From a virus: DNA of 21,392 nucleotides. The position numbers and the translations under genes are program-made. This document shows, in pieces, positions 5,720 to 9,515 of this stretch. The notes under the pieces are model-generated. The model worked only from the letters and a program-made list of their open reading frames with translations, was not told the DNA's origin and did not search any database. The stretch covers positions 1-21,392 of IMG/VR virus record IMGVR_UViG_3300032605_000163, one strand, 5' to 3'. How positions within the stretch are numbered: the first letter of the stretch is position 1; every line of letters starts with the position of its first letter.

Positions 5720-6070
5720 GTGATTACCCTAACATTTCCATACCCTCCCAGCGTCAACGCATACTGGCTTCAAGCCGGTAAACGCCGGTATATTTCTAAA
5801 CGAGGAGTAGATTTTAAAAGAGCTGTCCATGAAATATGTGACAAATTGCCAAGTTTTGGTGATAAACCCATAGAAATATTTATTGTGTTGTATCCGCGCG
5901 ACAAACGCCTTTTGGATATTGATAACTGTTGTAAGGCTATTCTTGATTCCATGAATGGCCTGATGTATGACGACGATCAGCAGGTATGGAAACTAACAGT
6001 AGAACGGGGCGAGAAGATTAAAGGCGGTGGATGCCAAGTAACCATCAAAGAATATAAGGGTAAACCCTAG
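5720..6070 (+). CDS. rusA: RusA-type Holliday junction resolvase
   Basis: RusA dimers cut four-way junctions formed in recombination and replication. The 116-residue product has the family start (TLTFPYPPSVNAYW), a basic KRRYISKRG segment, and the acidic cluster RLLDIDNCCKAILDSMNGL followed by MYDDDQQVW, which supplies the catalytic aspartates. The start is GTG with a weak ribosome site; it is chosen because the family motif begins directly after it. Length is typical. The gene is divergent from the recombination operon and ends about 70 bases before a strong terminator, so it may be transcribed alone. Confidence 0.92.
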   Translation: MITLTFPYPPSVNAYWLQAGKRRYISKRGVDFKRAVHEICDKLPSFGDKPIEIFIVLYPRDKRLLDIDNCCKAILDSMNGLMYDDDQQVWKLTVERGEKIKGGGCQVTIKEYKGKP

Positions 6071-6142
6071 TATTTAGTGTTTATTTGTATGTGATACACT
6101 ACCTATGTATCTCGTGAGGATACTTCCCTGTAGTACTTTTGG

Positions 6143-6169
6143 GGCTGTCTCTTGACAGCCTCTTTTTTA
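6143..6169 (+). terminator. Rho-independent terminator after rusA
   Basis: A perfect 7-base-pair stem GGCTGTC/GACAGCC (6143-6149, 6154-6160) with a four-base loop is followed by TCTTTTTT. It ends the rusA transcript in the plus direction. Its 3' arm contains the TTGACA of the next promoter. Confidence 0.88.
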
Positions 6170-6180
6170 TGTTGTAAATT
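6152..6180 (+). promoter_or_regulatory. Sigma70-type promoter in front of a structured leader
   Basis: TTGACA at 6152-6157 is a perfect -35 box; 17 bases later TAAATT (6175-6180) gives four of six matches to the -10 box. Transcription would start near 6187-6190, just before the first helix of the folded RNA candidate. The -35 box is built into the terminator stem upstream, a compact phage arrangement. Strength and start are predictions. Confidence 0.65.
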
Positions 6181-6186
6181 AACAAT

Positions 6187-6338
6187 GCAGAGATGGACTT
6201 TGGACGGTTCACTATGTATAATCTCGAGTCAATAACCTCATACACATGGGGTCTACATATAGTTTCTTTATGTTTGGTTGACTCGGTGACAAACACAAAG
6301 GAATGTCCAAAAGTAGACTCCAGCTGTATGGGGTTTTT
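6187..6338 (+). ncRNA. Candidate structured small RNA or attenuator leader
   Basis: About 150 bases lie between a promoter and a terminator. Helices read from the sequence: 6197-6205 with 6305-6314 (9 bp, one bulged A); 6225-6232 with 6278-6285 (8 perfect bp, CGAGTCAA/TTGACTCG); 6236-6240 with 6247-6251 (CCTCA/TGGGG). A competing 9-bp pairing joins GGGGTCTAC (6248-6256) to GTAGACTCC (6313-6321) across the 8-bp helix; it would break the terminator stem. This is the layout of a terminator/antiterminator switch or a pseudoknotted small RNA. I match it to no known RNA family. The weak frames crossing it on both strands lack ribosome sites. Confidence 0.55.
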
Positions 6339-6343
6339 CTTTT
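6315..6343 (+). terminator. Terminator-like hairpin closing the structured leader
   Basis: A7-pair stem (6315-6321 with 6330-6336, including two G-U pairs) with an eight-base loop runs into TTTTTCTTTT. The T tract and G/C base are terminator-like, but the stem is modest. Its 5' arm can instead pair with 6248-6256, so termination may be conditional. Confidence 0.55.
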
Positions 6344-6582
6344 CTGCGAACCATTCTGGACGGCAGAGAAACACCAGCGGATTGGTTCCTAGCGTTACTG
6401 GGGAAATGTCTGTAATAGCGCAATATCGGTGGCGAAGCTAGTGCCGATGACATGAACGACTGGCGGGTGCTGTGGCTCCGAATGAGTAGCAGTTGAAGGC
6501 GCACTTCTAGGGCGAGGTGCGTCCACCAAATGAGTAACATTAATATTAATAATATATATATCAATCATATAAGGAGAATAAT
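6341..6582 (+). other. Structured, G+C-richer non-coding stretch before the replication genes
   Basis: No convincing gene is seen. Several helices can be drawn: 6343-6347/6363-6367 (TCTGC/GCAGA); 6374-6377/6398-6401; 6406-6410/6449-6453 stacked on 6425-6429/6444-6448 with a 14-base bulge; 6468-6471/6488-6491 with an inner CTC/GAG; 6498-6504/6517-6523 (GGCGCAC/GTGCGTC). The words AATGAGTA occur at 6481 and 6529. The last 40 bases are very AT-rich and hold the AAGGAG site of the next gene. It may be a second part of the upstream RNA or a long 5' leader. Confidence 0.4.
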
Positions 6583-7215: not shown

Positions 7216-8706
7216 ATGCTCCAGCTTCGCCCTCACCAGCAAGAAGTTATACAGAAGTTAAATGAAGGATTTAAAGAACACAAGCGTCAAATCCTATGCG
7301 CAGTAACAGGGTTTGGTAAAACCGAATGTGCGATGGCAGTCATGCAAGAAGCTGCAGCGCAAGGTAAACGAGTAGCGATGGTGCTTGACCGGATTGTGTT
7401 GGTAGATCAAACCAGCAGGCGCCTATCTAAGTATGGTATCCCACACGGCGTATTGCAGTCTGCCCACTGGCGTAATCGTCCATACGAGCCAATTCAGATT
7501 TGCTCAGTGCAAACTCTAGCCCGCAGAAAAATTCCATTAAATGTAGATTTATTGATTGTGGATGAAGCCCATGTGCTTTATAAATCCACAGTAGATTTTA
7601 TTAAAGCAAACTTCAATATGCAGGTCGTTGGATTGACCGCTACGCCCTTTACTAAAGGTTTGGGGGAGATCTATACCAATGTAATCGGCGCACAGCCTAT
7701 GACCCATTTAGTTGAGGATGGATGGGTTGTGCCACTGAAAGTCTATATTGCCAAAGAAATTGATATGACCGGCGCAAAGAAGTTAGCTGGAGAATGGCGG
7801 GCAGATGATGTAACCGAAAGAGGTATGAAAATTGTCGGTGATGTTGTCAAAGAATGGGTGCAGAAAACCCATGAGATTTATGGTGGACCCAAAAAGACTA
7901 TTGTGTTCTGTGCTGGAGTTAATCATGGCAGAGCATTGGTAGATCAATTCAAACAATCAGGTTACAACTTTGTATCTATTTCATATAAGGAAGATGATGA
8001 ATTTAAGAGAGCTACTATCGAAGATTTTGCGCGTCCAGATACCGACATCCACGGACTTATCGCAACTGATATCCTTACTCGTGGTTTTGATGTTAGTGAT
8101 GTTTGCATTGGGATTTCAGCTCGCCCTTTTTCTAAGTCATTTAGCTCCCATGTGCAACAGATAGGACGGATTCTACGACCACACGAAGGCAAAGATTTTG
8201 GTGTATTGTTAGATCATTCCGGTAACTTCTTGCGGTTCAGAGAAGATTGGGATGGGCTGTATCACGATGGCGTAACTGAACTCAAGACAGGCGGAGAGAC
8301 AGTCAAGCGTGAGCCAACAGAGAGAGAAAAGAAAGAAGCCAAGTGTCCTAAATGCTCGGCTTTGTGGACTTCAAAAGATAACACTTGCGCCTCTTGCGGT
8401 CATGTAAGACTAGCCCAAGCCTCGATCTCCAATATCGCTGGCAGAATGGAAGAACTACAACTCAATGCCCGCAACATCAATAAAGAAAGAGCTGACTTTT
8501 ACAATCAATTAGTTTATTACGGCAAGATGAAGGGCTACAAAGAAGGTTGGGCTGCGGTTCAATTCAAAGCTAAACATGGAGTGTATCCGAATGGATACAA
8601 ACCAGAGCCATCTCCACCAGATGCTAAAACTCTTGGCTGGATTAGAAGTCGCAACATAGCGTTTGCTAAATCAAAACAAAAATATGCTGAAAGGATTGCT
8701 GCATGA
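7216..8706 (+). CDS. SF2 DEAH-box helicase with C-terminal zinc ribbon
   Basis: An ATP-dependent helicase or translocase of the phage replication/recombination set. Visible motifs: RPHQQ near the N-terminus (Q-like), Walker A TGFGKT (31-36), DEAH (116-119), TATP (141-144), the second RecA domain with TIVFCAGVNH and ATDILTRGFDV, and motif VI QQIGRILRP (314-322). A zinc ribbon follows at C377, C380, C391, C394 (CPKC...CASC), then a basic helical tail. The layout is that of SSL2/RadD-like phage helicases. It overlaps the primase start as ATGA, implying coupled translation. The leader holds two hairpins. Confidence 0.92.
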   Translation: MLQLRPHQQEVIQKLNEGFKEHKRQILCAVTGFGKTECAMAVMQEAAAQGKRVAMVLDRIVLVDQTSRRLSKYGIPHGVLQSAHWRNRPYEPIQICSVQTLARRKIPLNVDLLIVDEAHVLYKSTVDFIKANFNMQVVGLTATPFTKGLGEIYTNVIGAQPMTHLVEDGWVVPLKVYIAKEIDMTGAKKLAGEWRADDVTERGMKIVGDVVKEWVQKTHEIYGGPKKTIVFCAGVNHGRALVDQFKQSGYNFVSISYKEDDEFKRATIEDFARPDTDIHGLIATDILTRGFDVSDVCIGISARPFSKSFSSHVQQIGRILRPHEGKDFGVLLDHSGNFLRFREDWDGLYHDGVTELKTGGETVKREPTEREKKEAKCPKCSALWTSKDNTCASCGHVRLAQASISNIAGRMEELQLNARNINKERADFYNQLVYYGKMKGYKEGWAAVQFKAKHGVYPNGYKPEPSPPDAKTLGWIRSRNIAFAKSKQKYAERIAA

Positions 8707-9515
8707 ACTTTGAATCATTTGCAGAGCAACATGGCTTGATTATTGACCATCTTGTTTATGATCGCTGGGCGCGTGTTCCCACTACTGATAAGCCTAATAA
8801 AAAGAATGGAGCATACATATTTGATGGCACTACCGGTGCGGTTCGTAATTGGGCGGTGCATGAGAAGCCAATATCTTTTTCTCCGGATGTTAAATTTAAA
8901 TTATCAAAAGAAACAATTAGGAAGAAGATTGCTGAATCTAAAGAAAAGCAAAAACTTAGACACAATCAAGCAATTAAAAGAGCCAGAGATATGTTGGATA
9001 ATTCTGAAAAAATGCCTCATCCTTATATGGCCAAGAAAGGTTTTCCAGATTTCAAAGTGCCTGTCAATAATGGCCTCATGCTGTTACCTATGCGGATTGG
9101 TCAGAACTTAGTTGGCTGTCAGGTTATCAAAGATGATGGCTCAAAGTTTTTTTTGTATGGGCAAATTACCAAAGGTGCAGAATTAGTCATAGATAGCAAG
9201 GGTAAGCATATTCTATGTGAAGGGTATGCTACTGCCATGTCTTTGCGTAGAGTATTAAAGAGTTTGGACTTGCGTTATACGATTCATGTTTGCTTTTCAG
9301 CGTTTAATATTTGTGAAATAGCCTCATACTACGAACAATGTGTCGTCCTTGCCGACAATGATCCTGCTGGACTAGAATACGCAGAAAAAACGGGCAAACC
9401 CTTTTGGAGTCCACCCGTTTTAGGAGAAGATTTTAATGATCTTGAATTGCGTGTTGGCACAGAAGAAGCCGGCAAGTTATTTATTGCAAGCGGTTTGATG
9501 GAGGCATCTGACTAA
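8703..9515 (+). CDS. Toprim-domain primase
   Basis: Primes DNA synthesis at the replication fork. The Toprim core is at about 168-250: E173 in ILCEGYATAMS, D218-x-D220 in VVLADNDPAG, and GEDFNDL (241-247). The N-terminal half has GAYIFDGTTGAVRNW, as in phage primase-like proteins with the DUF7146-type segment, but lacks the zinc-finger cysteines of DnaG-like N-termini. No helicase domain is fused; the SF2 helicase next door is not DnaB-like, so a replicative helicase may lie outside the window or come from the host. The 3' end overlaps a convergent gene by 35 bases. Confidence 0.9.
   Translation: MNFESFAEQHGLIIDHLVYDRWARVPTTDKPNKKNGAYIFDGTTGAVRNWAVHEKPISFSPDVKFKLSKETIRKKIAESKEKQKLRHNQAIKRARDMLDNSEKMPHPYMAKKGFPDFKVPVNNGLMLLPMRIGQNLVGCQVIKDDGSKFFLYGQITKGAELVIDSKGKHILCEGYATAMSLRRVLKSLDLRYTIHVCFSAFNICEIASYYEQCVVLADNDPAGLEYAEKTGKPFWSPPVLGEDFNDLELRVGTEEAGKLFIASGLMEASD

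Follow-up and report, generated by a model that had tools for sequence, protein, structure and literature searches.

The window analysed here is the whole of a 21.4-kb virus record (21,392 nt) from a freshwater phage, with recombination genes on the left, genes for a helicase and a Toprim primase on the right, as the first-pass annotation of this DNA had read them, and a terminase beyond. The rusA gene (5720-6070) is followed by its own intrinsic terminator, GGGGCTGTC-TCTT-GACAGCCTC-TTTTTT, which is also kept in close relatives (L360, L366-L368). Between this terminator and the helicase gene lie two structured RNAs, referred to below as RNA1 and RNA2 (Table 1). RNA1 is located between a promoter-like site and RNA2, which heads an operon on the same strand.

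Table 1. Features of the region between rusA and the replication genes, in window coordinates
Feature	Position	Strand	Basis or remarks
Intrinsic terminator of the rusA unit	6141..6168	+	9 pairs, 6 of them GC, then TTTTTT
-35 box TTGACA of the putative small RNA promoter	6152..6157	+	sequence
-10 box TAAATT (4/6), putative	6175..6180	+	kept in closest relatives; expected RNA start ~6187
RNA1, self-terminating structured small RNA	6187..6343	+	z = -4.8; covariation
5' hairpin, 6194-6198/6207-6211, loop TTTGGAC	6194..6211	+	compensatory changes in L360, L362-L366
PK1, 5' strand, TTTGGAC	6199..6205	+	loop of 5' hairpin
PK2, 5' strand, CGAGTCAA	6225..6232	+	linker
Long terminator hairpin, 6234-6244/6325-6335, 6247-6256/6313-6322, 6262-6269/6297-6304, 6271-6276/6290-6295	6234..6335	+	
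PK2, 3' strand, TTGACTCG	6278..6285	+	apical loop of long hairpin; type A support
PK1, 3' strand, GTCCAAA	6305..6311	+	bulge, 3' side of long hairpin; class-wide support
U-tract, TTTTTCTTTT	6334..6343	+	sequence; kept in relatives
RNA2 = RF02932 (Betaproteobacteria-1)	6349..6536	+	Rfam model 6349-6468, conserved to ~6536; replication operon leader
RNA2 direct repeat, copy 1, AATGAGTA	6481..6488	+	sequence; class-wide
RNA2 direct repeat, copy 2, AATGAGTA	6529..6536	+	sequence; class-wide
DNA helicase	7216..8706	+	
Toprim DNA primase	8703..9515	+	Pfam score slightly under cut-off

A perfect TTGACA and a fair -10 box had been proposed to drive transcription of RNA1, and both are present, separated by 17 nt. 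In the region as a whole promoter-like matches are not enriched (3 versus 3.4 in shuffled sequences), and the window promoter is credible because the relatives have a -10 box at the matching place before RNA1. In type A it is found just 5' of the 5' hairpin in 29/30 RNAs (at least 5/6 matches; 5% of control windows), and in type B a TATAAT-like box lies upstream of 28 of the 57 RNAs (1.4% of control windows), while the -35 boxes are weak in both types. The genes on either side of RNA1 in the relatives are mostly on the same strand. From these sequence features, RNA1 is likely to have its own promoter and to terminate itself. The TTGACA sits in the 3' arm of the rusA terminator, a single element thus serving as terminator and -35 box, and this arrangement is retained in the closest relatives; the segment 6104-6170 may be a short RNA in its own right.

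RNA1 (159 nt) folds at -51.1 kcal/mol, compared with -34.4 +/- 3.5 kcal/mol for dinucleotide shuffles. It comprises a short 5' hairpin, a linker and a long hairpin (-42.8 kcal/mol) with a T-tract immediately 3' of it (T residues at 6334-6338 and 6340-6343), tied together by two pseudoknots: PK1, between the loop of the 5' hairpin and a bulge in the 3' strand of the long hairpin, and PK2, between the linker and the apical loop. Three of these elements had been recognized in the first-pass annotation with different degrees of precision. Its helix 6225-6232/6278-6285 is exact and corresponds to PK2, which covaries; its helix 6197-6205/6305-6314 is a real pseudoknot (PK1), but is better described as the pairing of 6199-6205 with 6305-6311; and its terminator hairpin at 6315-6336 is able to form (-8.5 kcal/mol), although the terminator that is conserved consists of the base of the long hairpin.

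In the RNA1 of the window, approximately 1 nt separates the end of the PK2 linker from the base of the long hairpin (~35 bp). Judged from this geometry, PK2 could form in cis alongside the complete hairpin only if the latter folded back at the PK1 bulge. Since the lower stem (~21-23 bp) is about as long as the upper stem (~14-15 bp) plus PK2 (7-8 bp), the dimensions would suit such a fold-back. It is also possible that PK2 forms between two molecules, or before the lower stem closes.

Relatives were collected in two ways. A degenerate pattern of the RF02932 core matched viral contigs (at least 120) and genome contigs (22), mostly of Betaproteobacteria; upstream of many of these loci, at the same position, lies a long terminator hairpin whose 3' side leaves ~7 nt unpaired. 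In most cases these ~7 nt are complementary to a loop located a few tens of nucleotides 5' of the hairpin. Stem-based searches, in which the pseudoknot strands were left free, yielded 103 type A contigs, at least 120 type B contigs and, from the branch to which the RNA1 of the window belongs, ten close relatives in addition to a contig of the same phage (L024). In total, RNA1 is present in well over 200 contigs of uncultured phages. Four matches of the hairpin scan that resemble coding sequence (L016, L075, L099 and L117) were dropped, L044, which was folded differently by the scan, was excluded from the statistics, and L142 was rejected as a chance match to the pattern. The search patterns themselves impose part of the mid-stem invariance of types A, B and C, which was therefore not used as evidence; the strands of PK1 and PK2, on the other hand, lay in free (N) positions or outside the patterns.

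The pseudoknots were evaluated in 31 distinct RNAs that had been found via RF02932, i.e. independently of the sequence of RNA1. When the pairing of each RNA with its own partner strand was compared with the pairing with foreign strands, PK1 (loop and bulge) gave a sum of 487, and none of 20,000 permutations exceeded 378; PK2 (linker and apical loop), which is restricted to some branches, gave 409, with 387 as the highest permuted value. Among 60 type B sequences, 99.3% of PK1 cells are paired, with 120 double changes versus 30.6 after shuffling; the score of 0.742 (0.147 in shuffles) was reached by none of 500 shuffles, and pairing falls to at most 49% when the partner is slid by 1-3 columns. 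These 60 RNAs contain 26 distinct pairs of PK1 strands, or tags, 25 of which are entirely Watson-Crick. In 30 type A sequences, 97.6% of the PK1 cells and 94.6% of the PK2 cells are paired, and all pairs have changed on both sides. The window branch itself includes, for PK2, the variants CGAGTCAA/TTGACTCG, ACCCAA/TTGGGT, CGACCAA/TTGGTCG and CGGGCAA/TTGCCCG and, for PK1, TTTGGAC/GTCCAAA and TTGGAAG/CTTCCAA, and the stem of its 5' hairpin also varies. Thus compensation is found for both pseudoknots in the closest relatives and for PK1 in ~90 more distant viral RNAs. Pairing of the 7-nt loop of the 5' hairpin with the 3'-side bulge and, in the window branch, of the linker with the apical loop can be taken as demonstrated by this comparative evidence.

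The acting strand is indicated by constant G-U pairs in the stems of the + strand, which would be C-A on the other strand, so that it is the + strand that forms the RNA. A protein frame as the cause of the conservation was ruled out because RNA1 varies in length among close relatives (153-157 nt) by amounts that are not multiples of three; an 82-aa frame over RNA1 has no PHROG match. Judging from the alignments, the structure of RNA1, its strand and its existence as a unit are nearly certain, and the covariation, together with the conserved -10 box and U-tract and the same-strand neighbours, strongly supports two suggestions of the first-pass annotation, namely that of a pseudoknotted phage small RNA and that of a terminator placed before the replication genes. 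The letters of the tag can vary freely provided that the match is kept; no diversifying selection is claimed, as the backgrounds were selected by pattern.

RNA2 matches RF02932 over the full model (positions 1-120) with 90.7 bits, well above the gathering score of 49.4, and belongs to this family. The statement that the leader resembles no known RNA class therefore holds for 6187-6345, where a search of Rfam 15 returned no family above the gathering score (the matches are far under threshold and to unrelated families), but not beyond, as RF02932 begins at 6349. The family lies immediately downstream of RNA1 and does not include it, and its model ends ~70 nt short of the conserved end: in loci L002-L143 conservation continues up to a variable direct repeat. 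The two copies of this repeat covary between phages (own match sum 296 versus a maximum of 222 in permutations, n = 43), and no pairing partner for it was found in RNA1, RNA2 or the flanks. We found no useful literature naming RF02932 or Betaproteobacteria-1. In bacterial genomes G002 and G003 (Paraburkholderia, Xenophilus) RF02932 is present in two to three copies, one of them below the cut-off. BLAST searches of known phage records gave only short marginal matches, with the exception of Acidovorax phage AP1, which has a weak match to the RF02932 core, and of an RNA2-like sequence in an uncultured podovirus (MW202484.1, 33533-33892; L359), annotated as a hypothetical protein, which is possibly a misannotated RNA.

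The RF02932 core follows type A RNA1 in 21 of the 94 loci with sufficient downstream DNA, and in all 21 it is located 122-131 nt behind the hairpin core. Nearly all remaining type A loci have other conserved noncoding sequence straight after the U-tract. By clustering, these stand-ins fall into about ten to a dozen recurrent groups, a small one of which (L291/L331) resembles coding sequence; no Rfam match was found in 20 representative loci. In the largest group (67 loci) the predicted pairs contain 122 double-changed cells, compared with at most 17 when the strands are slid, and double-changed pairs occur in several stand-in classes. Examples of the classes are L147:2586-3061, L145:10378-10852, L246:7854-8324, L153:2944-3418 and L265:7116-7595, and further ones are found at L257, L244, L261, L252, L270, L242 and L250. 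RNA2 groups 1 (RF02932) and 3 both have, close to the 3' end, a direct repeat whose sequence is phage-specific. In class 0 (L147, L150) the 3' end of the second RNA enters a GGG-rich, Shine-Dalgarno-like stretch right before an ATG, so that such RNAs may be leaders that affect translation. Additional inverted-repeat segments of ~100-200 nt occur between RNA1 and RNA2 or within RNA2 at L248, L245, L243, L292 and L324, as if hairpin modules had been inserted.

Many loci have RNA2 without RNA1, which indicates that the unit can do without RNA1, and RNA1 is also found without RF02932. A -10 box directly 5' of RF02932 is present in 17 of 52 loci that lack RNA1, as opposed to 1 of 31 loci that have it, and RNA1 therefore appears to have been inserted between the promoter and RNA2. 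This position provides the anatomical ground for describing RNA1 as both an attenuator and a small RNA. In most cases no promoter is evident in the sequence between the two RNAs.

RNA1 has the hallmarks of an intrinsic terminator or attenuator, i.e. a promoter-like site, a hairpin with a U-tract and same-strand genes, and no Rfam family covers it. A literature search, whose coverage largely excluded subscription journals, retrieved no relevant description of RNA1. The phi29 pRNA, GOLLD and ROOL are phage noncoding RNAs with a conserved fold and complementary loops; RNA1 has complementary loops in common with them, but differs in size and location and lacks an Rfam match. IsrK, a small RNA of the Gifsy-1 prophage, has a terminator past which part of the transcription continues; this gives short and long isoforms that have sequence in common, the short one acting on the long one (PMC4825925). 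Like IsrK, RNA1 has its own promoter-like site, a rho-independent terminator and an RNA or gene downstream, into which its transcription may likewise continue. Unlike RNA1, IsrK affects anrP translation and leads to antQ, and the parts of PMC4825925 used here describe no loop-bulge pseudoknot for it, whereas RNA1 has one and precedes another structured RNA and replication genes. In phage P4, as summarised in the same source, complementary leader RNAs (seqA, CI RNA and seqC) halt transcription of the replication genes. RNA1 likewise lies before replication genes and carries complementary segments; however, these are inside one terminator hairpin unit, whereas P4 generates its CI RNA by processing and uses it in lysogeny (PMC4825925), and type B RNA1 was found in none of 274 bacterial genomes. 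The put RNAs of HK022 are structured early-operon leaders, located close to the early promoters of the phage, that are able to act on RNA polymerase (PMC9378689). They are ~70 nt long, form two stem-loops and suppress termination, while RNA1 is ~155 nt long and ends in a terminator, so that by size and fold RNA1 is not a put RNA; put may instead serve as a functional analogy and possible model for RNA2 (~190 nt). The tests made here do not place RNA1 among RNAs of the IsrK, P4-leader or put kind.

In our opinion RNA1 is, on balance, probably a small RNA that terminates itself and at the same time serves as an attenuator, read-through of which yields RNA2 and the operon. Attenuation of RNA2 and the replication operon is the best single reading, with about an even chance of being correct. 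According to it, an early RNA1 of roughly 155 nt would be transcribed from its own sigma-70-type promoter and would terminate itself by means of the base of the long hairpin and the U-tract. Most polymerases would stop there and release stable RNA1, while a minority would read through into RNA2 and the replication mRNA, and RNA1 would thus set the level of both. As loop and bulge are complementary and phage-specific, it is conceivable, with less confidence, that free RNA1 pairs with nascent RNA1 of the same phage and thereby tunes read-through, which might resemble what the two IsrK isoforms or the P4 leader RNAs do, as far as they are described in PMC4825925. Against the attenuator stand the imperfect -10 box of the window and the overlap of its -35 box with another terminator. 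Besides, the terminator stems are so strong that read-through might be negligible, and RNA2 might instead originate from an upstream promoter (that of the rusA unit) or from processing.

The strength of these stems also argues for a complete terminator. RNA1 would then be a stand-alone RNA that acts in trans or as a scaffold, binds a protein or an RNA of host or phage, or kisses into dimers or oligomers by means of its tag, and lies next to RNA2 merely by tandem packing. This is possible but, on the whole, unlikely. The ~10 different RNA2 classes found behind RNA1 indicate that it is not bound to one downstream element, and its self-complementary, phage-specific loops resemble the interlocking loops of pRNA. 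However, some read-through or upstream transcription seems to be needed, since a promoter between RNA1 and RNA2 is not evident (1/31), and the nearly fixed position of the RF02932 core behind type A hairpins is not what tandem packing would suggest.

A rather improbable reading gives the tag itself the main role: the PK1 pair would be a phage identity mark, by which RNA1 recognizes itself in cis or in trans and controls copy number, or shuts out superinfecting relatives by acting on early transcription, with the RNA behind it as a swappable cargo from ~10 unknown classes. Copies and complements of the PK1 tag showed no excess elsewhere in the fetched phage DNA, so that pairing in trans would be possible only among copies of RNA1.

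Still less probable is a two-state switch, in which the long hairpin and two local hairpins (6236-6240/6247-6251 and 6315-6321/6330-6336) would be mutually exclusive and would set termination or read-through, possibly under the control of a ligand or protein. The nine-base pairing of GGGGTCTAC (6248-6256) with 6313-6321, on which the first-pass annotation had built its switchable terminator, does exist, but it is one section of the long hairpin's main stem. The window sequence allows both local hairpins to form, and similar self-complementary arms recur in window-like and type-A-like RNAs, where among 31 relatives they are significant (p < 0.05) for the 5' arm in 11, for the 3' arm in 7 and for both in 4. 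They are, however, missing from type B and several further branches, and the conserved helices PK1 and PK2 involve no pairing to the terminator arms. As the 3' local hairpin is itself a terminator, either state leaves a hairpin before the U-tract and the exchange would not turn termination off, hence an on/off switch of that form is not supported. The riboswitch that had also been considered finds no support either: types A, B and C share the architecture alone, without a common sequence that could represent an aptamer or ligand-binding core. Attenuation by other means, for instance read-through or contact between RNAs, is conceivable. Finally, it is very improbable that the DNA acts rather than the RNA, the inverted repeats being protein sites or a replication origin and the RNA structure a by-product. 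In favour of this are the inverted repeats that the complementary tags make at the DNA level, the iteron-like, phage-specific direct repeats of RNA2 and the replication genes downstream. Against it, the G-U pairs are constant on the + strand, the -10 box and U-tract are conserved at the two ends, and in other phages the unit or its RNA2 also follows genes of other kinds, such as primase or PAPS-reductase-like genes (gene calls partly by eye).

Whichever of its proposed roles applies, RNA1 shows very clear pseudoknot covariation, yet it is absent from Rfam; it ties a terminator to an upstream loop and nearly always precedes a second, exchangeable RNA. It therefore offers a handle on the role of RF02932 and its uncatalogued stand-ins, and on how early transcription may be metered in these phages.
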